Source: Rhizobacter sp. (GTDB taxonomy: Bacteria; Pseudomonadota; Gammaproteobacteria; Burkholderiales; Burkholderiaceae_C). Taken from it: a DNA stretch of 63,374 nt. Made by a program: the position numbers and the translations under genes. Of this stretch, positions 1-46,062 are shown piece after piece. The stretch covers positions 1-63,374 of the forward strand of contig JANYJL010000292.1 of assembly GCA_025361845.1 (NCBI GenBank), given 5' to 3'. The notes beneath the pieces were generated by a model, which worked only from the letters and a program-made list of their open reading frames with translations, did no database searches and was not told the origin of the DNA. Within the stretch, counting starts at the first letter, position 1. Every line of letters starts with the position of its first letter.

Positions 1-232
1 GTTCCTCGAAGAACCACACGCTCATGAAGGCGCTGAAGTCGCTGTCGTCGCGGTTGTCGCGCAGGAACATCTCGGTCGCGGGCAGCGCGGCCCACTCGGT
101 GATGGCGTTCATCTTGATGGTCTGCGCCTGCTCGTTGCTCAGCTTGCTGGCGTCGAACTGGTCCCAAGGAATGTCCTTGTCCATGTTCCAACGCACCGCT
201 TCGAGCTGCTTGAAAAGTTCTGGATAGATCAT
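1..232 (-). CDS. Ferritin-like domain protein (5' part, runs off the left edge)
   Basis: The first 77 codons of a minus-strand gene are visible; the rest lies outside the window. The protein begins MIYPELFKQLEAVRWNMD. It continues with helices containing TEWAALPATEMFLRD and SVWFFEE, the Glu-rich pattern of ferritin/rubrerythrin-like four-helix proteins, where Glu and His ligate a di-iron centre. A plausible -10 (TAAAAT on the minus strand, in the 233-270 stretch) lies upstream, but I see no good -35. The gene is downstream of, and on the same strand as, the MerR/B12 regulator, so it may belong to the same stress response. The family call rests on pattern memory; the second metal-binding helix pair is not visible. 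Confidence 0.6.
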   Translation of the reverse strand, partial: MIYPELFKQLEAVRWNMDKDIPWDQFDASKLSNEQAQTIKMNAITEWAALPATEMFLRDNRDDSDFSAFMSVWFFEE

Positions 233-328
233 GGCAGTGGCCTCGGGTTGCTGGACAATTTTAGCCTTCAGGCCATGACCTTCGGTGGGCCACGCCGGCT
301 TCGGCTCTGCCGCGGTTTCAGCGCGGTT

Positions 329-1234
329 TCAACGCACCCGCCAGCGTGCGATGCGACCCGGCAGGTCGTTGAAACTCGAGACCGCCTGCACGCCGGCCAC
401 CGGGCGGCGGTGCAGCACCGGGGCCAGGCCACCGGCCCACACTTCCACCTCGCCGGGCAGCTTGGCCCGCAACTCAGCCAGCCCGGCCGTCACCGCATTC
501 GGGTTCATGCAACCAGTGAAGCTCAGGGCCACGATGTCGCTGTGGTGCGCCTGGGCGGCGAGCACCAGGTCCCACACCGGCGTCTGCACGCCGAGGGACA
601 GGCAGCGCGCCCCTTCGATCGCAAGCATCGCTTCGGCCATCAGCAAGCCCAGGCCGTGGGGTTCACCCGGCAGGGTGCTGAGCAGCACCCGCGGGCGGTC
701 CTGCAAGGCGGCATCAGGCAGGTTGGCGATGGCCTGGCGCAGCACCACCTGGACGGACTCGGTGTAGGCGTGCTCTTCGAATATTTCGATCTGCCCACGC
801 ATCCAGGTTTCGCCCACCAGCGTATTGAGGGGCGAGAGCACGTCGGAGACGAACCGGCCCAGGCCCAAACGCATCTGCGCCTGGGACAGCATGCGGCGCA
901 GGCCCACCACATCATGTTCACGCAAGACTGCCAGATAACCATGCAAATCGGGCGCCAGCGCCGGCGCGAGGCGCTGCGTGGCGGGCATGCTGTCGCTCAG
1001 GCGCTGCAACTCGGCGACCGACAAAGCGACCACACGCCCCGGCCGGTGCCCGCCGTCGAGCAGGCGCTTGACGATGCGCAGCTTCTCGACCTGATCGAGC
1101 GGGTAGGCCCGCTCGCCCACCGCATCACGCTCGGGCAAGGGGTAGCCGTAGCGGCGCTCCCAGACACGCAAGGTGTCCTTGCTCAGGCCGGTGTCGCGCT
1201 CGACCGCGGCGATCGACAGGGTGATGGGTTTCAT
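329..1234 (-). CDS. MerR-family regulator with CarH/LitR-type B12-binding photosensor domain
   Basis: A 301-residue DNA-binding regulator. Residues 4-72 form a MerR winged helix (LSIAAVERDTGLSKDTLRVWERRYG). Residues 90-175 are the helical-bundle cap and 180-290 a cobalamin-binding Rossmann fold. It has the W-x9-EH signature of adenosylcobalamin photoreceptors (Trp144, Glu154-His155) and an E-x-H-x-x-G motif (EPHGLG, His193, the lower cobalt ligand). Known relatives (CarH, LitR) repress target promoters in the dark as B12-bound tetramers and release DNA in light. Residue 145, after the Trp, is Met; Thermus CarH has a cobalt-capturing His there. I chose the start at 1234 because the upstream extension has no MerR similarity. 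The gene is divergent from the glutathione peroxidase and shares a promoter element with the lipid operon. B12 binding is inferred, not shown. Confidence 0.88.
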   Translation of the reverse strand: MKPITLSIAAVERDTGLSKDTLRVWERRYGYPLPERDAVGERAYPLDQVEKLRIVKRLLDGGHRPGRVVALSVAELQRLSDSMPATQRLAPALAPDLHGYLAVLREHDVVGLRRMLSQAQMRLGLGRFVSDVLSPLNTLVGETWMRGQIEIFEEHAYTESVQVVLRQAIANLPDAALQDRPRVLLSTLPGEPHGLGLLMAEAMLAIEGARCLSLGVQTPVWDLVLAAQAHHSDIVALSFTGCMNPNAVTAGLAELRAKLPGEVEVWAGGLAPVLHRRPVAGVQAVSSFNDLPGRIARWRVR

Positions 1235-1260
1235 GGCCCCGCGGGCTTTTGCAACCGCCG

Positions 1261-1289
1261 TTGATTCGACTTGCACATGTCTTTAATAT
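1261..1289 (+). promoter_or_regulatory. Sigma-70-like promoter for the glutathione peroxidase
   Basis: TTGATT (1261-1266), 17 nt spacer, TAATAT (1284-1289), 34 nt before the ATG at 1324. The spacer and -10 overlap regulatory copy A, so a protein bound there would block this promoter. On the opposite strand TTGGTC (complement 1308-1313), 16 nt, TAATAT could serve the regulator. Confidence 0.55.
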
Positions 1290-1300
1290 TAGATCAGTCC
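1269..1300 (-). promoter_or_regulatory. 32-nt element, copy A, upstream of the MerR regulator
   Basis: On the minus strand this reads GGACTGATCT then AATATTAAAG, ACATGTGCAA, GT. It matches the element at 1927-1958 at 19 of 32 positions with no gap: the block GACTGATC, an inner TAT and GA, and a closing CAAGT all keep their spacing. It ends 34 nt before the regulator start, in the direction of that gene. It could be an operator for the MerR protein itself (autoregulation) or an ECF-type -35/-10 pair (TGATC-N18-CAAGT). Confidence 0.5.
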
Positions 1301-1323
1301 AATCATTGACCAAGACAAAACCC

Positions 1324-1926
1324 ATGATCTCGATCAACAAGAACGCATTGTCCGGCGCCTTTTCACGCCTTGTGGTGGCCTGCGGCCTGGGCCTGGCGCT
1401 GAGTTCCGCGGCCGAGGCGGCACCGTGCAGCACGCTGCTGAACCGCTCGGTCCTCCGCCTCCAGGACGAAAAGCCCCAAGACCTGTGCCAGTACGCCGGC
1501 CAAGTGGTGGTGGTCGTCAACACGGCAAGCTTTTGCGGCTACACGCCGCAGTACAAGGCGCTGGAATCGCTCTACGAGCGCTACCGCAGCCGCGGCCTCG
1601 TGGTGCTGGGCTTCCCGTCGAACGATTTCTCGCAGGAGCCTGGCACGAACAAGGACGTGGCGGACTTTTGCGAAAACACCTTCGGCGTGAAGTTCCCGAT
1701 GTTCAGCAAGTCGCAGGTGTCCGCGTCGGCCGGCCCGGCCCTCAACCCGCTGTTCGCCGAACTGTCGCGACGCACCGGCGCGGCGCCGCAATGGAATTTC
1801 CACAAGTACCTGATCGCCCGCGACGGCAACGCCATCCTCAGCCGGGCGAGCGACGTCGACCCAGCCTCGCGCGGCTTCGTGCAGGACATTGAAAAACTTC
1901 TCGATGCACCCGCACTACCCAAATGA
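1324..1926 (+). CDS. Exported glutathione peroxidase family thiol peroxidase
   Basis: A 200-residue protein that reduces peroxides with a catalytic Cys. The family signature NTASFCGYTPQY carries the peroxidatic Cys. FPSNDFSQEPGTN and WNFHKYLI complete the usual catalytic tetrad regions (Gln, Trp, Asn). Residues 1-30 form a signal peptide (basic start, hydrophobic stretch, cleavage near SSAAEAA/PC), so it acts in the periplasm, which is less common for this usually cytosolic family. The start is the ATG at 1324, just after the regulatory region. The gene is divergent from the B12-type regulator. A peroxide-detoxifying enzyme fits a regulon for light-generated oxidants. It could reduce lipid hydroperoxides, given the lipid operon downstream, but substrate choice is inferred. 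Confidence 0.88.
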   Translation: MISINKNALSGAFSRLVVACGLGLALSSAAEAAPCSTLLNRSVLRLQDEKPQDLCQYAGQVVVVVNTASFCGYTPQYKALESLYERYRSRGLVVLGFPSNDFSQEPGTNKDVADFCENTFGVKFPMFSKSQVSASAGPALNPLFAELSRRTGAAPQWNFHKYLIARDGNAILSRASDVDPASRGFVQDIEKLLDAPALPK

Positions 1927-1958
1927 AGACTGATCGGTTATATTTGATACTCACAAGT
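1927..1958 (+). promoter_or_regulatory. 32-nt element, copy B, upstream of the lipid-modification operon
   Basis: It starts immediately after the glutathione peroxidase stop and reads AGACTGATCG, GTTATATTTG, ATACTCACAA, GT. TGATC is at 1931-1935 and CAAGT at 1954-1958, with the same 18-nt spacing as copy A. It points toward the operon starting at 2255, leaving a leader of nearly 300 nt. This is the best candidate for the site through which the operon is co-regulated with the MerR gene. Confidence 0.5.
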
Positions 1959-2254
1959 TCATTTTGCGACCGACCCACTTTTCCCATGGCCTCCCGCACT
2001 GCCACCGCCCCGCTCACGAAGAGTTGCAAGTTGACGGAACTCGGCGTGCGCGGGCGCCTCCAAAACGGGCGGGTCAGAGTCTTTGCAGTACGAGGCCACG
2101 ACACCCGCAAGTTTTTGTTGCGAAGCCGCCCGGCACGCCGGGTTGAAATCTCCGAGCGACTTTCCTCCTCCCTCCTCCCTCCCTCCTTCGCTCGGAGGCG
2201 CTTCGTGACGCTCTTCTTCGCACCCGGCGCACAGCGCCCGGGCGCCTGAGCCTC
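1959..2254 (+). other. Long structured leader with no convincing gene
   Basis: A stretch without a recognisable gene between the glutathione peroxidase and the lipid operon. It holds a short GC hairpin (CCCGG-CACG-CCGGG, about 2130-2143) and a larger hairpin with a pyrimidine-only loop at 2150-2197. A + strand frame open across it (108 codons) looks like low-complexity Arg/Ser/Pro sequence with no domain, so I do not call it. Confidence 0.5.
2150..2197 (+). other. Hairpin with 10-bp stem and pyrimidine-rich loop in the operon leader
   Basis: Left arm CTCCGAGCGA (2150-2159) pairs perfectly with TCGCTCGGAG (2188-2197). The 28-nt loop (2160-2187) contains only C and T, mostly CCT/CTCC repeats. 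The complementary strand of the loop is G-rich with several GGG runs and could form a G-quadruplex. It sits 57 nt before the operon start codon. Confidence 0.6.
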
Positions 2255-3565
2255 ATGCGCCGCGTGGCCGTGGTCGGCTCGGGCATCGCCGGCCTGGCGG
2301 TGGCCCATGGCCTCGCGAGCGAAGCTGCTGTCACGCTGTTCGAAGCGGGCGATTATTTCGGCGGCCATACCCACACGGTCGACGTCACGCTCGACGGCGT
2401 GATGCACGGCGTGGACACCGGCTTCCTGGTGCTCAACGAACGCACCTACCCGAACCTGCTGCGCCTCTTCGCCGAACTCGGGGTCGAGACGGCTGCGTCT
2501 GACATGTCCTTCTCGGTCCAGGTGCCCGACCGCGGTCTGGAGTGGAGCGGCTCGGACCTGAACACCGTGTTCGCGCAGCGTCGCAACCTGCTGCGCCCGC
2601 GCTTCTGGCGCATGTTGTCGGAAGTGCTGCGCTTCAACCGCGTGGCCACCGCCTTGGCGGTCGGCGGCGATGAAGTTCAACTCGATCAGCCGATCGGCGA
2701 TTTCCTCGCCGAGCAGCGCTTCTCGACCGAGTTCCGCGATTGGTATTTCCTGCCGATGATCGGCTGCATCTGGTCCTGTCCGACCGACCAGATGCTGCGC
2801 TTTCCGATCGCCACGATGATTCGTTTCTGCCACAACCACGGCCTGATCCAGGTGGCGAACCGGCCGCAGTGGTACACGGTGCGCGGCGGGGCGCGTACCT
2901 ACGTCGAGAAGATGCTGCGCCGCATTCCCGACGCACGACTGAACACCCCTGTGCGCAGCGTGCGGCGCGTGCCGCCGGGCCGTGGCAGCGCCGGTGTGTT
3001 CATTACCACCGACCACGGCACCGAACGTTTCGACGACGTGGTGCTGGCATGCCACAGCGACCAATCACTCGCCATGTTGAGCGACGCCAGCGAGGCCGAG
3101 CGCGAGGTGCTCGGCGCGGTGCGCTACCACCGTAACCGCGCCGTGCTGCACACCGACACCTCGGTGCTGCCGAAGCGCCGGCTGGCATGGGCAGCCTGGA
3201 ACTACGAGCGTGCCAGCAACGAAGCGCGCGAGCACGCCGGTGTGTGCCTGCACTACCTCATCAATCGCCTGCAACCGCTGCCGTTCAAGACGCCGGTGTT
3301 GGTGTCGCTGAACCCGCTGACCGAGCCGGATGAACGTTGCGTGCATGGCGAGTTCGACTACGCGCACCCGGTGTTCGACGCGGCCGCCATCGCCGCGCAG
3401 CAACGCCTGCCGCAACTGCAAGGCCAGGCGCGCACCTGGTTCTGCGGCGCCTGGACACGCTACGGTTTTCACGAAGACGGTTTGATGTCCGGCCTGGCGG
3501 TGTGCGCCGGCCTGCGCGAAAACTGGGCGCGCACCGACGCCGCTGCAACGCAGGAGGCCGCGTGA
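2255..3565 (+). CDS. FAD-dependent oxidoreductase (amine-oxidase fold)
   Basis: A 436-residue flavoprotein, first gene of the lipid operon. The N-terminal dinucleotide motif VVGSGIAGLAVAHGL (residues 5-19) and the following FEAGDYFGGHTHTV are typical of the NAD(P)/FAD oxidoreductases that accompany CFA-type synthases and DUF1365 proteins. Related clusters are under light or singlet-oxygen control (RpoE-ChrR in Rhodobacter, LitR in Pseudomonas) and are linked to unusual fatty acids. The likely role is oxidation or desaturation of a membrane acyl chain, in concert with the methyltransferase two genes down. The ATG at 2255 has a weak ribosome site. The stop overlaps the next start (GTGA at 3562-3565), so translation is probably coupled. 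The substrate is inferred. Confidence 0.85.
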   Translation: MRRVAVVGSGIAGLAVAHGLASEAAVTLFEAGDYFGGHTHTVDVTLDGVMHGVDTGFLVLNERTYPNLLRLFAELGVETAASDMSFSVQVPDRGLEWSGSDLNTVFAQRRNLLRPRFWRMLSEVLRFNRVATALAVGGDEVQLDQPIGDFLAEQRFSTEFRDWYFLPMIGCIWSCPTDQMLRFPIATMIRFCHNHGLIQVANRPQWYTVRGGARTYVEKMLRRIPDARLNTPVRSVRRVPPGRGSAGVFITTDHGTERFDDVVLACHSDQSLAMLSDASEAEREVLGAVRYHRNRAVLHTDTSVLPKRRLAWAAWNYERASNEAREHAGVCLHYLINRLQPLPFKTPVLVSLNPLTEPDERCVHGEFDYAHPVFDAAAIAAQQRLPQLQGQARTWFCGAWTRYGFHEDGLMSGLAVCAGLRENWARTDAAATQEAA

Positions 3566-4365
3566 ATTCGGCCACCGCATTCGCACCCAGCCCGGCCTTG
3601 ATCGGCACCGGCCAGGTCCGCCACACGCGGCTGCGCCCGGCGCTGAACCGCTTCACCTACCCGACCTATTTCCTGATGCTGCCGATGCGCAGCCTGCGCG
3701 AAAAGCCGAGCGCCGCGTTGCCGCGCAACCGCTTCGGCCTCATCAGCTTCTACGACGCCGACCACGGCGACGGCCGCGCCGACAGCCTGGCCTGGCTGGA
3801 TGACTTGCTGGCGCGCGAAGGCATCACCGACGCAGCGGGCGAAGTCTGGCTGCACTGCTACCCCCGCGTGCTGGGCCACACCTTCAAGCCGGTGAGCTTC
3901 TGGTACTGCCACCGCGCGGACGCGACACTCGCTGCTGTCGTCGTCGAAGTCAACAACACCTTCGGCGAGCGCCACTGTTACCTGCTCGCCGAACCGGGCC
4001 TCGCCTTCGGCCGCGAATTGCGCGCGAGCAAGGTGTTCCATGTGTCGCCCTTCTGCGACGTGGCGGGCAGCTACCGCTTCCGCTTCATGCGCAGCGCGCC
4101 ACAGCCGAGCGGTGCACACCTCGATGCAGGCCGCACCGTCGCCCGCATCGACCACCACGACGCGCAAGGCGTGCTGATCCAGACCAGCGTGTCTGGCGTG
4201 CTGCGCCCGCTCACACCGGCAAGCATGCGCGCCGCCTTCTTCGGCATGCCGCTGATGACGCTCGGCGTCATCGGTCGCATCCACTGGCAGGCGATGAAGC
4301 TGTGGACGAAGCACGTGCCCTTCTTCCGCAAGCCGCGCGCCCCCGCCACCTTCGTGACCCGCTGA
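3562..4365 (+). CDS. DUF1365 family protein
   Basis: A 267-residue protein starting at GTG 3562, with a strong ribosome site (AGGAGG, 3551-3556) and overlapping the previous stop. DUF1365 features include the early RHTRLRPALNRFTYP, VLGHTFKPVSFWYC, VVVEVNNTFGERHCY, and the KVFHVSPFCDVAGSYRF segment. The biochemical activity of the family is unknown to me. It is consistently found between an FAD oxidoreductase and a CFA-like synthase, which suggests a part in modifying membrane lipids. No signal peptide; probably cytosolic or peripheral to the membrane. Confidence 0.9.
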   Translation: MNSATAFAPSPALIGTGQVRHTRLRPALNRFTYPTYFLMLPMRSLREKPSAALPRNRFGLISFYDADHGDGRADSLAWLDDLLAREGITDAAGEVWLHCYPRVLGHTFKPVSFWYCHRADATLAAVVVEVNNTFGERHCYLLAEPGLAFGRELRASKVFHVSPFCDVAGSYRFRFMRSAPQPSGAHLDAGRTVARIDHHDAQGVLIQTSVSGVLRPLTPASMRAAFFGMPLMTLGVIGRIHWQAMKLWTKHVPFFRKPRAPATFVTR

Positions 4366-4390
4366 CCTCACCCTCCAACTCGTGCCCGCC

Positions 4391-5611
4391 ATGAACTCCC
4401 GCAGCACCCTCGCCCCGTTGGCCCTGCCCGAATCGGCCCCCGCCGCCGCACGCGCCGTGTTCCACATGCTGCGCAAGCTGCGGCACGGCACGCTCGACGT
4501 GCAACTGCCGGACGGCTCATCCGCCCACTTCGGCACCCTGACCGCGGGCGAGCCGCGCGCGGCCATCCGGCTGCGCAACTGGAATGCCTGCACGGCCGCG
4601 CTGAAGTCGGGCGACATCGGCTTTGCCGAGAGCTACATCGCCGGCGAATGGAGCACGCCCGACCTGACCGCCCTGCTGACCCTCTTCACCGCCAACCGCG
4701 ACGAAATCGAGTCGGTCGTCTACGGCACCTGGTGGGGCTCGCTGCTGTTCCGCGCCAGGCATTTGTTCAACCGCAACTCGCGCCAGGGCAGCAAGAAGAA
4801 CATCCACGCCCACTACGACCTGGGCAACGAGTTCTACCGACTCTGGCTCGACCCGACGATGAACTACAGCAGCGCCTGGTTCGAAGGCGATCGCCGTGGT
4901 GATCTGGTCGCCGCGCAATGGGCCAAGGTGCGACGCGCGCTCAGCGAATGCGGCGTGAAGCCGGGCGACCGCGTGCTCGAAATCGGTTGCGGCTGGGGCG
5001 CGCTGGCCGAGTGCGCGGCACGCGATTTCGGCGCCACGGTGAGCGGCGTGACGCTCTCGACCGAACAGCTCGCCTGGGCGCAGAAACGCCTGGTCGATGC
5101 TGGCCTGCCCGGCGACTTGCGCTACCAGGACTACCGCGACATCGCCGACGGCCCGTTCGACGCCATCGCCTCGATCGAGATGTTCGAAGCGGTCGGGCGC
5201 GAGTACTGGCCGAGCTTCTTCGAGACGCTCAAGGCCCAGCTCAAACCGGGTGGCAAGGCCTGCATCCAGAGCATCACGATCCGCGACGACCTGTTCGAGC
5301 GCTACGTGAAGTCGACCGATTTCATCCAGCAGTACATCTTCCCCGGCGGCCTGCTGCCGAGCCCGAGCGCCTTCCGCGCGGCCGCGGCGAAAGCCGGCCT
5401 GGAAGTGATCAACGAACTCGAATTCGGCCTCGACTATGCCGAGACGCTGCGCCGCTGGCGCCTGGCCTTCCAGGGGCAGGACGGGCCGGTTCGCAAGCTC
5501 GGTTTCGACAGCCGCTTCATGCGCATCTGGGAGTTCTACCTCGCCTATTGCGAGGCCGCCTTCGCCACCGGCAACACCAGCGTCATGCAGTTCACGCTGC
5601 GGCGTGCCTGA
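4391..5611 (+). CDS. cfa: Cyclopropane-fatty-acyl-phospholipid synthase family methyltransferase
   Basis: A 406-residue SAM-dependent enzyme that adds a methylene or methyl group to the double bond of phospholipid acyl chains at the membrane. It has NIHAHYDLGNEFYRLWLD, the SAM loop VLEIGCGWGALAE, the acidic motif SIEMFEAVG, and QQYIFPGGLLPS. E. coli Cfa has MFEHVG at the acidic motif; here the His is Ala, a variant I associate with the second CFA-like subgroup in these clusters. It may therefore make something other than a plain cyclopropane, for example a methylated precursor of a furan fatty acid (inference). A GTG at 4382 would add three residues; neither start has a good ribosome site. 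Confidence 0.88.
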   Translation: MNSRSTLAPLALPESAPAAARAVFHMLRKLRHGTLDVQLPDGSSAHFGTLTAGEPRAAIRLRNWNACTAALKSGDIGFAESYIAGEWSTPDLTALLTLFTANRDEIESVVYGTWWGSLLFRARHLFNRNSRQGSKKNIHAHYDLGNEFYRLWLDPTMNYSSAWFEGDRRGDLVAAQWAKVRRALSECGVKPGDRVLEIGCGWGALAECAARDFGATVSGVTLSTEQLAWAQKRLVDAGLPGDLRYQDYRDIADGPFDAIASIEMFEAVGREYWPSFFETLKAQLKPGGKACIQSITIRDDLFERYVKSTDFIQQYIFPGGLLPSPSAFRAAAAKAGLEVINELEFGLDYAETLRRWRLAFQGQDGPVRKLGFDSRFMRIWEFYLAYCEAAFATGNTSVMQFTLRRA

Positions 5612-5638
5612 GCTGTGGTTCAACACCTCGATGTCGGT

Positions 5639-6196
5639 GTGACGCGCCGCGCCTTGCTGCTGGCGTTGGCTGGCGTTCCCGCCGTGCTGTGGGCGCAAAG
5701 CGCCGCGCCCGCGGAAGTCGCGGCCGAGTTGCCCGCAGCCAAGCTGCTCGGCAGTGGCCGCCTCACCTTCCTCGGCTTGCAGATCTACGACGCGCGCCTG
5801 TGGGTCGGTGAGGGTTTCAAAGCCGAGGCTTACGAACAAGCACCGCTCGCCATCGAACTGGAATACGGCCGCACGCTCTACGGCAAGCTGATCGCCGAGC
5901 GCAGCCTCGACGAGATGAAGCGCAGCGGTGGCGTGAGCGAGGAGCAAGCCGAACGCTGGCTCGCGACGATGAAGCAGACCTTCCCCGATGTGGTGAAGGG
6001 CGACCGCATCACCGGCGTGTTCCGGCCGGGGGTGTCGGCGCGCTTCTTCCTGAACGGCAAGCCGATCGGCGAAGTGAACGACGCCGAGTTCGCCCGGCGC
6101 TTCTTCGGCATCTGGCTGTCGCCAAAGACTTCGGAGCCGAAGTTGCGCCTGGCCTTGCTCGGGCCGGCCGGCGCTGCGCCGCGGGTGGGCTCATGA
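5639..6196 (+). CDS. Exported chalcone isomerase-like domain protein
   Basis: About 185 residues from the GTG at 5639 (an earlier in-frame GTG at 5615 adds eight). Residues 1-22 (TRRALLLALAGVPAVLWAQS) form a signal peptide. The mature part has the chalcone-isomerase-like fold pattern: LLGSGRLTFLGLQIYDARLWV, IELEYGRTLYG, and a closing FFGIWLSPKTSEPKLR. Bacterial members of this family are not flavonoid enzymes, and many are thought to bind fatty acids or other small hydrophobic molecules. Its place right after the CFA-type enzyme fits a periplasmic lipid-binding role. The stop overlaps the next ATG (6193-6196). Confidence 0.8.
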   Translation: MTRRALLLALAGVPAVLWAQSAAPAEVAAELPAAKLLGSGRLTFLGLQIYDARLWVGEGFKAEAYEQAPLAIELEYGRTLYGKLIAERSLDEMKRSGGVSEEQAERWLATMKQTFPDVVKGDRITGVFRPGVSARFFLNGKPIGEVNDAEFARRFFGIWLSPKTSEPKLRLALLGPAGAAPRVGS

Positions 6197-35594: not shown

Positions 35595-35674
35595 CTGCGA
35601 AGTTGCGCAATGCAGGCCTGAGTTTGAGCCGCCTTCGCTGCCCACTTTCAGAGGGGCTTCGCTGCGGCGGCTCA
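35575..35674 (-). repeat. 100-nt double-hairpin repeat, copy 1
   Basis: On the minus strand, hairpin 1 is TGAGCCGCC ... GGCGGCTCA (50 nt) and, two bases later, hairpin 2 is CTCAGGCC ... GGCCTGAG (48 nt). It is 84 of 100 identical to copy 3 without gaps. The first three bases, TGA, are the stop codon of the HbpS-like gene. It is in the sense direction of that gene and of the ankyrin gene. Confidence 0.88.
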
Positions 35675-36903: not shown

Positions 36904-38480
36904 GCGGCTTCCTCGGCCAAGGGCAAAACGAGCCGGAACTCGGCGCCGCGAGGCTCGGTGTGATGTGCGCTCAAGCGGCCGTTCATGGCCTGCGCCAGCG
37001 TATCGCACAGGCTCAGGCCGAGCCCGAGGCCGCCGCGCTTCGTCGTGTAGAAGGGCTCGAACAGGTGGGACAGGGCCTCGTCGGCGATGCCGGGCCCGCT
37101 GTCGCGCACCGTCAGCACGCCGTGCCCGGCGTGGGTGCCGAGGCTGATGTCGAGACGGCGCTCGGCCTGCGGCACCTGGTCCAGCGCCTGCAAGGCATTG
37201 CCAACGAGGTTGTGCACGATCTGCTCGAGCGCCACCGGATCGGCCCGCACCGGCGCAGCCCGCCCGTGCAAAGCGGCCCGCACGCCGCGGCGCTGCGCCT
37301 CGGGTTCCAGCAGCTCCAGCACCTGGCGCACCACCGCCTCCAGTTGCACCGGGCGGGTGGGCGCGGCCGCCTCGGGCGCTTCGACCTGCCGGCGCAAACG
37401 CGCCACCACGTCGGCAGCGCGCCGCCCCTGCACGACCACCTGGGCGATGGCCTGGCGCGCGGTGGCCAGCTCGGGTGGCTCGTCGTCGAGCAGGCGGCGC
37501 GCCGCTTGCGCACCGGCCATCACCGCAGCCAGCGGCTGGTTCAGCTCGTGCGCCATGCCGGCCGCGAGTTCGCCCATCGCGTTCAGGCGCGCCACCTGGC
37601 CGACACGCAGCAGCGCCTCCGCGCGGCGCCGCGCGCGCCGGGCCTCCAGCCAGCTCGCCGCCCCGGCGAGTGCCAGCGCGGTGGCACTCGCCCAGGCAAA
37701 CAGCCAGGCCCACGGCCACTGCACCGGGCCGGTGGCGCGGCGCAGTTGCAGCTCGAAGGGCTGGCCCGGCGCGGCCAGGGTCTTGGCGAAAACGAAGCCC
37801 GGCGTCAGGCCGGAACGAAACACCTGCGAAGCTGTGTAGAGGAGGCCTGACGATGAGCCGCCTGCGCTGCCCAGTTGCACAGGGGCTTCGCTTCGGCGGC
37901 TCAAGCCGACGGGTTGTTCGCCGGGCAGCTCGCCGGGCTGGATCGTCAGCGTCTGCCCGCCTTGCAGCAAGGCCACCCGCACCGGCCCGTGCTTCTGCAC
38001 CGGCCATTCGTCCCAGGGCACCATGCGCTGCACGTCGATGCGCAGCGCAAAGCTGCTCGGTGTGCCAGCCTGCAGCACGGTGTAATGGCCGCGCACCACA
38101 TCGACAGCGCCGAGTTCGGCGTGGCCGCTGCGGCGCGACCTCGTCTCGGCCTCGCGCAGCGTCTCCTCGGGCCAGGCCTGTTCAGCGTCGCGCCGCAACA
38201 CGGCCAGCACCTGCGGGTAGACGGCGGGCAGGCGCTGCTCGGGTCGGTCGGCACCCTCGGCGGTGGGGTGCAGCAGCGCCAGCGTCGCGAGGACCGCCTC
38301 CTGCTGCACCGCGCGCTGGCTGAGCAGGCGATGCGCGATGCGGGCGTCGGTCTGGAAGGCATCGCGCCGCTCGGCGATGTCGACGCGCACGATGACGAGC
38401 GCGCCGGTCAGCACGAGGCCGATCCAGCCGGCCAGCCATGCCACAGCATGGCGGCCCCGCAAGCCAGGAGGAATCCGCAT
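36900..38480 (-). CDS. Membrane sensor histidine kinase carrying a repeat-encoded insert
   Basis: About 526 residues: one TM helix (residues 13-33), a periplasmic sensor (34-240), a second TM helix (about 250-270), then dimerisation and ATPase domains. The phospho-acceptor His is in MAHELNQPLAAVM; N-box VHNLVGNALQAL, G1 DSGPGIADEALSHLFEPF, G2 GLGLGLSLCDTLA. Residues about 193-226 are read from copy 2 of the 100-nt repeat, so the sensor carries about 34 residues ([16 protein letters not shown]...) that the family would not be expected to have. The frame stays open through it. Paired with the FixJ-type regulator. The start MRIPPGLRG (38480) has a GAAAGG ribosome site. Confidence 0.9.
   Translation of the reverse strand: MRIPPGLRGRHAVAWLAGWIGLVLTGALVIVRVDIAERRDAFQTDARIAHRLLSQRAVQQEAVLATLALLHPTAEGADRPEQRLPAVYPQVLAVLRRDAEQAWPEETLREAETRSRRSGHAELGAVDVVRGHYTVLQAGTPSSFALRIDVQRMVPWDEWPVQKHGPVRVALLQGGQTLTIQPGELPGEQPVGLSRRSEAPVQLGSAGGSSSGLLYTASQVFRSGLTPGFVFAKTLAAPGQPFELQLRRATGPVQWPWAWLFAWASATALALAGAASWLEARRARRRAEALLRVGQVARLNAMGELAAGMAHELNQPLAAVMAGAQAARRLLDDEPPELATARQAIAQVVVQGRRAADVVARLRRQVEAPEAAAPTRPVQLEAVVRQVLELLEPEAQRRGVRAALHGRAAPVRADPVALEQIVHNLVGNALQALDQVPQAERRLDISLGTHAGHGVLTVRDSGPGIADEALSHLFEPFYTTKRGGLGLGLSLCDTLAQAMNGRLSAHHTEPRGAEFRLVLPLAEEAA
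37804..37903 (-). repeat. 100-nt double-hairpin repeat, copy 2 (inside the histidine kinase gene)
   Basis: On the minus strand, hairpin 1 is TGAGCCGCC ... GGCGGCTCA and hairpin 2 is GTCAGGCC ... GGCCTGAC. The outer pair of hairpin 2 is G-C here but C-G in copies 1 and 3, a compensatory change. It is 85 of 100 identical to copy 3 with no gap. It is read in frame as part of the sensor domain. Confidence 0.88.
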
Positions 38481-43745: not shown

Positions 43746-45965
43746 ATGACCGCACGCACCACCGTCCATGGCCTTCAGGTCGCCACCGTCCTGCACCGTT
43801 TCATCGAAGACCAGGTGCTGCCGGGCACGGGCGTCGATGCAGCCACGTTCTGGAAAGGCTTCGATGCCATCGTCAGCGATCTGGCCCCGAAGAACGCCGA
43901 CCTGCTGGCCGAACGCGACCGCCTGCAAACCGAGCTCGATGCCTGGCACCGCGCCAACCCCGGCCCGATCAAGAAGCCCAAGGCCTATCGCAAGTTCCTG
44001 CAAAGCATCGGCTACCTCGTGCCGGTGCCCGGCAAGGTGAAAGTGAGCACGAAGAATGTCGATGCCGAACTGGCGCTACAGGCCGGCCCGCAGCTCGTGG
44101 TGCCGATCACCAATGCGCGTTATGCGCTGAACGCCGCGAACGCACGCTGGGGTTCGCTGTACGACGCGCTGTACGGCACGGACGCGATCTCCGAAGCCGA
44201 TGGCGCCGAGAAGGGCAAGGCCTACAACCCGCTGCGCGGCGCCAAGGTCATCGCCTACGCGCGCCATGTGCTCGACCGCACCGTGCCGCTCAAGAAGGGC
44301 TCGCATGTCGATTCGACCGGCTACGCGGTCGTGGACGGCGAACTGAGCGTGACGCTGAAGGACGGCCGCCGTGTCGGGCTCGACAAGCGCAAGCAGTTCA
44401 TCGGCTACCAAGGCGATGCCGGCGCGCCTTCTTCCCTGCTGTTCGAGCACCACGGCCTGCACCTCGACCTGCGCATCGACCGCAGCACCGTCATCGGCGC
44501 GAGCGACACCGCGGGTGTCTCCGACCTGATCCTCGAATCGGCCCTCTCCACCATCCTCGACCTCGAAGATTCGGTCGCCGTCGTCGATGCCGACGACAAG
44601 GTGCAGGCCTACGGCAACTGGCTCGGCATCATCGAAGGCACGCTGACCGAAGAGGTGACGAAGGGCGGCACCACGTTCAAGCGCGGCCTGAACCCGGACC
44701 GGCTCTACACCGCGCCGAACGGCGGCGCCGTGAAGCTGCACGGCCGCGCCCTGCTGTTCGTGCGCAATGTCGGCCACCTGATGACGAACCCGGCGGTGCT
44801 GTGGGGCGCCGACGAGCGCGAGATTCCCGAAGGCATCCTCGACGCCGTCGTCACGACGACGATCGCGCTGCACGACCTGCAACGCCATGGCGTCAAGGGC
44901 ATCGTCAACTCGCGCCAGGGCTCGGTCTACATCGTCAAGCCGAAGATGCACGGCCCGGCCGAGGTGGCGTTTGCGGCCGAACTGTTCGGCCGCGTCGAGA
45001 AGCTGCTCGGCCTGCCGAAGGCGACCGTCAAGCTCGGCATCATGGACGAGGAACGCCGCACCAGCGTGAACCTGAAAGCCTGCATCGCCGCGGCGGCTGA
45101 TCGTGTGGCCTTCATCAACACCGGCTTCCTCGACCGCACCGGCGACGAGATGCACACCGCCATGCAGGCCGGCGCGATGCTGCGCAAGGGCGACATGAAA
45201 TCGAGCGCCTGGATCCAGGCTTATGAGCGCAGCAACGTGCTCGTCGGCCTCTCCTGCGGCCTGCGTGGCAAGGCGCAGATCGGCAAGGGCATGTGGGCCA
45301 TGCCCGACCTGATGGCCGCGATGATGCAGCAGAAGATCGCGCACCCGAAGGCCGGCGCCAACACCGCCTGGGTGCCGAGCCCGACCGCGGCGACGCTGCA
45401 CGCGCTGCACTACCACCAGGTCGATGTGTTCGCGGTGCAGAAGCAGCTCGAAAAGCAGGATGCCGATGGCTTGGCCGACGAGTTGCTCGAAGGCCTGCTG
45501 ACCATCCCCGTCGTCAAGAAGGCGGGTTGGAACGATGCCGAGAAGCAGCAGGAACTCGACAACAACGCGCAAGGCATCCTCGGCTACGTGGTGCGCTGGG
45601 TCGACCAGGGCGTGGGTTGTTCGAAGGTGCCCGACATCCACGATGTCGGCCTGATGGAAGACCGCGCCACGCTGCGCATCAGCAGCCAGCACATGTGCAA
45701 CTGGCTGCTGCACGGCGTGGTCAGCCCGGCCCAGGTGAAGGCCTCGTTCCGGCGCATGGCGGCCGTGGTCGACCGGCAGAACGCCGCCGACCCGCTCTAC
45801 CAGCCGATGGCCGGCAACTGGGACAGCAGCATCGCCTACCGCGCCGCCCTCGACCTCGTGCTCAAGGGCCAGGTGCAGCCCAGCGGCTACACCGAGCCGC
45901 TGCTGCACGCAGCCCGGCTGGTGGTGAAGAGCGCCACGCCGCAGGTGCTGGCTTCGGTGTCCTGA
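43746..45965 (+). CDS. glcB: Malate synthase G
   Basis: A 739-residue monomeric enzyme condensing glyoxylate with acetyl-CoA to malate. Motifs: [34 protein letters not shown] (metal-binding Glu/Asp and glyoxylate site), [40 protein letters not shown], and the catalytic Asp in the C-terminal region ([19 protein letters not shown]). Length and order match the GlcB type, not the shorter AceB. The TGA stop (45963-45965) is the first three bases of copy 3 of the 100-nt repeat. Confidence 0.95.
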
Positions 45966-46062
45966 GTCGCCGTAGCGAAGCGCCTATGAAATTGGGCAGT
46001 GCAGGCGACTCATCCTCAGGCCTTCTCTGCACAACTCCGCAGGTGCTTCGTTCCGGCCTGAG
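45963..46062 (+). repeat. 100-nt double-hairpin repeat, copy 3
   Basis: Hairpin 1 is TGAGTCGCC ... GGCGACTCA: the fifth pair is T-A here but C-G in copies 1 and 2, a compensatory change. Hairpin 2 is CTCAGGCC ... GGCCTGAG. Conserved inner words: AGCGAAGC, TGGGCAG, CGCAGGTG, TTCGTTCC. It begins at the glcB stop codon and fills most of the space before the next gene. Confidence 0.88.

Follow-up and report, generated by a model that had tools for sequence, protein, structure and literature searches.

A conserved three-helix RNA with a CUCC-repeat loop, a candidate sigmaE-class small RNA, in Rhizobacter and its relatives

Within a 63,374-nucleotide (nt) stretch of DNA from Rhizobacter sp. (contig JANYJL010000292.1 of assembly GCA_025361845.1, positions 1 to 63,374; hereafter, the window), a hairpin whose loop is made up of pyrimidines alone lies just upstream of a lipid operon. 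The hairpin is one arm, designated P3, of a three-helix RNA that spans about 2117-2209 of the plus strand, and it is near certain that this structured RNA is real and conserved. Both the RNA and the promoter motif that precedes it are well supported, and, judged from its sequence, the RNA is likely to have its own gene with a promoter of the sigmaE type. With moderate confidence, we take it to be a sigmaE-class small RNA (sRNA) of about 140-180 nt that is transcribed independently and whose loop of CUCC repeats would pair in trans with Shine-Dalgarno (SD) sites; the pairing in trans is what we infer.

The hairpin was first noticed in a first-pass annotation of the window, and its coordinates and composition were exactly as described there. 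The arms CTCCGAGCGA (2150-2159) and TCGCTCGGAG (2188-2197) are exact reverse complements that form a perfect 10-bp stem, and the 28 nt of the loop (2160-2187) are exclusively C and T. The 30-nt C/T run at 2160-2189 is by far the longest in the window, where the next C/T run has 11 nt and the longest A/G run 13. The stem alone is unremarkable, being one of 14 in the window with at least 10 bp and a loop of at most 40 nt, and the 68-nt stretch around the hairpin does not fold better than shuffled sequence (z -1.03). The segment 2111-2222 folds into the three-helix RNA at -41.2 kcal/mol (z -3.53, equalled by none of 200 shuffles); with longer flanks (2070-2250), z drops to -1.24 and the same helices still form. 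Chance is ruled out mainly by conservation, as covariation is seen at 23 of the 27 pairs across 68 sequences. The parts of the element, in window coordinates, are as follows.

2036-2063, plus strand: sigmaE-type promoter motif (motif match), with -35 GGAACTC (2036-2042), N16 and -10 TCCAA (2059-2063)
2111-2222, plus strand: full RNA domain, scored at 100.9 bits (E 1.9e-26) by the covariance model R1, the window sequence being itself among the model's training sequences; 2111-2116 and 2210-2222 are flanks
2117-2126 pairing with 2200-2209, plus strand: P1, from the fold; as helix 1 of the alignment, 9/11 pairs with two-sided changes and 95.2 % of cells paired
2128-2133/2138-2143, plus strand: P2, a small hairpin with loop CACG, from the fold; as helix 2, 6/6 pairs with two-sided changes and 73.9 % of cells paired
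2144-2148, plus strand: junction TGAAA, within a conserved GMAAUCC-like stretch that joins P2 to P3, from the alignment
2149-2159/2188-2198, plus strand: P3, the reported 10-bp stem plus one U-G pair; as helix 4, 8/8 pairs with two-sided changes; at its base (helix 3), 0/2
2160-2187, plus strand: pyrimidine-only loop of repeated CUCC units, the proposed anti-SD, from the sequence and kept across homologues
2210-2250, plus strand: pyrimidine-rich tract behind P1, followed by a GC-rich hairpin without a U-tail; a possible 3' end, from the fold

The comparison began from 106 loci homologous to the first gene of the lipid operon, which encodes an oxidase; 26 were full-length loci from a set of 40 genomes, the source genome included, and 80 came from named contigs, with at least two genomes present in both. 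In 70/106 of them (one doubtful locus and duplicate genomes included), the 700 nt upstream include a C/T tract that is 14 nt or longer and contains CTCC. The alignment comprises 68 sequences, with the window among them; L016 (doubtful, from another family) and L075 (from the same genome as L003) were dropped. L016 is itself of some interest, since upstream of its oxidase gene a pyrimidine-rich tract sits within a long stem in a genome (G025) without an R1 match, and it may be an analogue. Across the 68 sequences, RNAalifold found unaided 24 pairs, 21 of them with two-sided changes; in a hand-drawn 27-pair structure, the 23 covarying pairs were accompanied by pairing in 89.4 % of cells. The covariation score was 0.543, compared with 0.259 for shuffled alignments (reached in 0/500) and at most 0.162 when the structure was slid. 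As G-U cells outnumber A-C cells in the aligned stems by 188 to 26, selection acts on the plus strand as RNA. The loop varies in length, with a longest C/T run of 14-31 nt and 2-7 CUCC units in each sequence, and its anti-SD (CCUCC) sequence stays unpaired and conserved while the stems change. Named carriers in the alignment include Rubrivivax gelatinosus, Rubrivivax benzoatilyticus, Methylibium, Rhizobacter, Leptothrix, Caldimonas, Paucibacter, Albitalea, Aquariibacter, Polaromonas and Acidovorax temperans.

The RNA is widespread within one family, named here by its carriers as Comamonadaceae and Rubrivivax-type Burkholderiales. R1 finds a single copy in the source assembly (4.5 Mb, 90.65 % complete). 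In the 40-genome set, strong copies (E <=1e-14) occur in 18/24 own-family genomes; two weak matches (E 0.0036 and 0.0059) fall in other families, and a second match in G012 is weak too (E 0.0016). In wider searches, run with stricter filters under which weak matches are lost, R1 matched 286/399 family genomes in 107/141 genera, with one match per genome among the matches listed, except in G251 (two). Samples of the order and the class, which contain some own-family genomes, gave matches in 8/300 and 3/274 genomes, every one of them own-family; no sampled genome of another family had an R1 match at E <=1e-4. A plasmid search returned no copy of the RNA. Rfam 15 had no match in the window, and a permissive search of 1950-2300 (E up to 10) returned three matches with chance scores only, RF02278 not among them. 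No report of the RNA, nor of any sigmaE-dependent sRNA in this family, was found in the literature searched, which included Comamonadaceae, Acidovorax, Variovorax and Rubrivivax and had most subscription journals and bioRxiv outside its scope. The small RNA is apparently uncatalogued.

The promoter motif was assessed in 88 RNA genes, i.e. the 68 aligned and 20 further fetched loci, against shuffles that preserve base composition only. GGAAC occurs within 150 nt upstream in 75/88 (shuffled mean 11.7, maximum 21). The distance from GGAAC to TCNNA is N18 in 45 and N19 in 11, together 55/88, and any other spacing from 8 to 27 occurs in at most two; at N16-18 combined, there are 46 compared with 0.43 in shuffles. 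Boxes of sigmaE type at a fixed spacing, as expected of a sigmaE-dependent sRNA, thus stand upstream of 55/88 genes and of the window copy, and are absent from 33/88. The source genome has one match to the RpoE model above its curated cut-off (253.6 bits; cut-off 236.15), and scanning 1-6000 for sigma70 promoters gave none, with terminators at chance level only. The first-pass annotation had held that transcription starting downstream of 2197 would undo its claim; the motif at 2036-2063 offers a candidate start upstream of the hairpin, with a 5' end that, from the position of the -10 box, would probably lie near 2070. A similar motif, GGAACTT-N16-TCCAA, precedes what we take to be an rpoH-like gene at L180 (G018:C1:3488639), where it overlaps a presumably CIRCE-like inverted repeat, TTAGCACTC-N9-GAGTGCTAA.

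At the other end of the RNA, at least five T occur in the 9 nt after P1 in 54/68 homologues, and intrinsic terminators were detected within 75 nt in 15/77 copies in oxidase context and 4/11 others (0.15 and 0.05 in shuffles of the same kind; contexts assigned by hand). An RNA that is not tied to one gene, has its own promoter motif and is followed by a terminator in 19/88 copies may form its own transcription unit. In the source genome, the possible 3' end at 2210-2250 is probably leaky.

On the reading as a trans-acting sRNA, RNA polymerase carrying an RpoE-type (sigmaE) factor would initiate near 2070, downstream of GGAACTC-N16-TCCAA. The transcript would fold so that P1 holds P2 and P3, with P3 exposing a long unpaired loop of CUCC repeats whose letters are identical to the anti-SD of the ribosome. 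Under envelope stress, the loop would pair with the purine-rich SD regions of target mRNAs and thereby block their translation. The CU-rich stretches of the Burkholderia double-hairpin RNAs and of the alphaproteobacterial alpha-r14 RNAs are described or predicted, in the available text of the two sources, to pair with ribosome-binding sites (PMC5688073, PMC10746234). Because the CUCC repeats match the anti-SD and such CU-rich precedents exist, pairing in trans is our leading explanation of the loop, and a regulator that acts on SD sites in trans is plausible. The start of the lipid operon is a poor target for the loop in cis.

The loop also appears on a second scaffold. Exact CTCCTCCCTCC was found at 25 sites in 10 genomes, 13 of them inside the RNA; inspected by eye, only L207 and perhaps L209 among the other 12 look sRNA-like. 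In the former (L207/L184, C1:4952636 region of G018), a sigmaE-type motif precedes a P1-like helix that encloses a CU-loop hairpin placed before a small hairpin, and the element ends in a GC-rich hairpin with a T-run resembling an intrinsic terminator; its loop letters are nearly those of the main RNA of G018. That loop and promoter motif recur together here on another scaffold suggests, from this one case, that the loop is what matters. L209 (G227:C1:3844107) has a CU-rich stretch, CCCTCCTCCCTCCCTCCCT, then a GC-rich hairpin with a T-run, and may be a further CU-rich sRNA without a sigmaE motif.

A number of observations weigh against this account and temper our confidence in it. First, R1 has no match in 113/399 family genomes. 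As to the promoter, GGAAC is missing from 13/88 genes and the spaced motif from 33/88, and the distance from the -10 box to the RNA varies from 8 to 117 nt; the Paucibacter copies and the L042 group have no spaced site and must therefore use another promoter. The exact pattern is also rarer than its reversed control: GGAACTY-N16-TCNNA occurs three times in the source assembly, once at 2036-2063, compared with 24 times for the reversed control, and GGAACTT-N16-TCNAA has seven exact matches in eight genomes, compared with 33 for its reversed control. Two of those seven sites lie before the RNA, one before the rpoH-like gene, one before the second CU-loop RNA and three in long open frames, by a crude test that flags two of the four other sites as well. 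The RpoE model has five further matches of lower score in the source genome, and the motif could therefore belong to another extracytoplasmic-function sigma factor. No terminator was detected by the above test in 69/88 copies, including that of the window; since the oxidase ATG there lies 46 nt past P1, read-through is likely in the source genome and co-transcription with the lipid operon is possible. Finally, sigmaE-dependent sRNAs would be expected to pair with outer-membrane-protein mRNAs, and such pairing was not supported. When 21 own-family porin starts (of 30 loci fetched; 16 from RNA-positive genomes and five from genomes without the RNA) were compared with 257 background open reading frames, the loop paired no better with the porin starts (medians -6.9 and -7.7, p 0.88); these starts did pair slightly better than background with the plain 16S tail (p 0.016). 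The comparison is a crude one, based on simple duplex energies and rule-picked start codons, at least one of which (L233) is apparently wrong.

Among described systems, the RF02278 'toxic small RNA' or double-hairpin RNAs of Burkholderia (ncS03, ncS05, ncS27 and ncS62; PMC5688073) come close in that they, too, have an anti-SD-type stretch, which is predicted to cover the ribosome-binding site of targets. As portrayed in the available part of that source, they consist almost entirely of two hairpins and have three to five homologues per genome, whereas the RNA described here forms a junction enclosed by P1, has one long loop of pyrimidines, is nearly always single copy, follows a sigmaE-type motif, occurs in another bacterial group and has no Rfam match. 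The alphaproteobacterial RNAs alpha-r14, NfeR1 (cuckoo RNAs) and CcsR form a second group (PMC10746234, PMC10253847, both in part). In alpha-r14, as here, a conserved anti-SD motif, CCUCCUCCC, is unpaired while the stems differ, and the window loop shares the motif, containing CCTCCTCCC; however, the motif is present in each of the three hairpins of alpha-r14, the promoter of NfeR1 is of sigma70 type, and CcsR, with an RpoHI/RpoHII promoter, shares its operon with a DUF1127 gene. The Rfam family ar14 (RF02344) scored only 13 bits (E 3.3) against 1950-2300, below its cut-off of 58.8. The sigmaE-dependent enterobacterial sRNAs MicA and RybB resemble the present RNA in the motif before their genes, the boxes printed for micA and rybB in the portion of the source available being GGAACTTTT and GTCAAA (PMC1804206). 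No similarity of sequence or structure to MicA or RybB is claimed, and pairing with porin starts is unsupported here.

Of the other explanations, the one that survives best, though we rate it as fairly unlikely, is that the loop captures an RNA-binding protein, such as Rho, a cold-shock protein, S1 or a ProQ-type chaperone, and so serves as a protein-binding or sponge RNA instead of base-pairing. The covarying scaffold does present the loop, and the loop keeps its composition and its CUCC repeats as its length varies, which would suit a protein site equally well and is thus a further point against pairing in trans. The identity of the CUCC repeats with the anti-SD argues the other way, as do the CU-rich anti-SD stretches of other sRNAs, for which the sources cited above, as far as their text was available, describe or predict pairing with ribosome-binding sites. 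As for Rho itself, proposed in the first-pass annotation, the loop belongs to a covarying RNA gene that has intrinsic terminators, which is not what a rut site looks like, and the Rho reading is not supported. What has held up is the view of the loop as a pyrimidine site on display, for which standard leaders offer no explanation.

Slightly less probable still is a cis-acting leader, i.e. that the RNA forms the 5' untranslated region of the oxidase operon, whose transcription or translation it would control through attenuation, Rho or a bound protein. The genes that flank the RNA in the window are the following.

1324-1926, plus strand: glutathione peroxidase gene, the upstream neighbour (PF00255, E 7.9e-28)
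2255-3565, plus strand: FAD-dependent oxidase gene, first of the lipid operon (PF01593), with its start 46 nt past the end of P1

In the window and in many relatives, the above test detected no terminator between the RNA and the oxidase start that follows it, which speaks for a leader, as does the pyrimidine tract upstream of the 70 oxidase loci counted above, with the same doubtful locus and duplicates. Against it stands the lack of the constant linkage to a regulated gene that is expected of a cis-regulatory leader or riboswitch. The RNA adjoins the oxidase gene in 8/18 RNA-positive genomes, the source genome included, and lies elsewhere in the other 10/18: it lies INDEPENDENCE from the lipid operon in G003, G010 and G022, which have the oxidase gene elsewhere; G004, G013, G016, G018, G020 and G023 have no oxidase match; and G015 has a weak match only. 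Conversely, the oxidase gene is present without an RNA match in six own-family genomes (G002, G005, G008, G009, G014 and G021, of which G008 and G009 are 65 and 89 % complete). Terminators within 75 nt of the RNA in 15/77 oxidase-context loci point the same way. An SD-like 4-mer lies at -22..-3 in just 22/68 oxidase genes, with that of the window not among them, which leaves the loop little to mask, and loop pairing at the oxidase start is only slightly stronger than at random places (-9.5 compared with -7.9 kcal/mol). In the 20 fetched loci, a glutathione peroxidase like the window's lies upstream in at least seven (by eye), and downstream, by crude gene finding, lies an oxidase operon, what we take to be a glutathione-S-transferase-like gene with purB, or a presumably CorA-like gene. 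Since RNA and operon can each be present where the other is absent, the RNA is not the leader of the lipid operon as such, and the first-pass description of the hairpin as a leader feature does not stand, the more so given its own type of promoter and, in some copies, its own terminator. Recurrence in relatives had been put forward as a test, and the structure does recur, but among the 40 relatives G005, whose oxidase is the most similar (81 %), lacks the RNA.

Two readings at other levels are very improbable. A DNA-level element (the quadruplex first suggested for the complementary strand, which contains GGAGGGAGGGAGGAGGGAGGAGG, or an i-motif or cruciform) would leave unexplained the covarying stems, the G-U bias expected of plus-strand RNA and the conserved promoter motif in the same orientation. 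A conserved small protein is comparably remote: one frame is open in 81/88, indels are mostly multiples of three, with 84/88 domain lengths of 106, 109, 112, 115 or 118 nt, and column entropy rises slightly to codon position 3 in all columns (0.85, 0.91, 0.99) and in the loop (0.34, 0.52, 0.58), but neither a start nor a stop is conserved, 7/88 contain in-frame stops, 59 and 43 of the 88 are likewise open in the two other plus frames and 71 in the best minus frame, and there is no such rise in the P1/P3 stems (0.93, 0.81, 0.89), where both-side changes keep the pairs. The leader-only, quadruplex and coding readings were accordingly set aside on the evidence of linkage, of covariation and strand, and of stops and entropy, respectively. 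The three-step length pattern of the 88 loci, which is without clear coding signs, stands as an unexplained observation.

Elsewhere in the window, 329-1276 encodes a MerR-type regulator with B12-binding domains, divergent from the glutathione peroxidase and lipid genes. A TTACC/GGTTATATTT-like motif lies directly upstream of the oxidase gene in several RNA-lacking relatives (by eye) and also at about 1931-1965 of the window, and is perhaps the operator of that regulator. Three similar inverted repeats (TGAGYCGCC ... GGCGRCTCA, with 32-nt loops) at 35625-35674, 37854-37903 and 45963-46012 are possibly a dispersed repeat element.

More generally, what appears to be a leader in one genome can prove to be an RNA gene once relatives are compared. 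The control of the envelope stress response by sRNAs is best known from enterobacteria. A bolder and distinctly more tentative proposal is that the family-wide RNA forms a new class and serves these betaproteobacteria as their sigmaE sRNA. In place of a seed specific to one target, it would imitate the 16S rRNA tail in multivalent form, with as many as seven CUCC units displayed by the three-helix scaffold, and so mask many SD sites at once under envelope stress. The loop would be a heritable module, reused in the second RNA of G018, and in some lineages, where the gene directly precedes the lipid operon, sRNA and operon would share a stress promoter. For a family of betaproteobacteria that are mostly environmental, the RNA provides a conserved candidate sRNA without an Rfam 15 match, with RpoE as its predicted inducer, a defined structure and a pairing site that can be tested.
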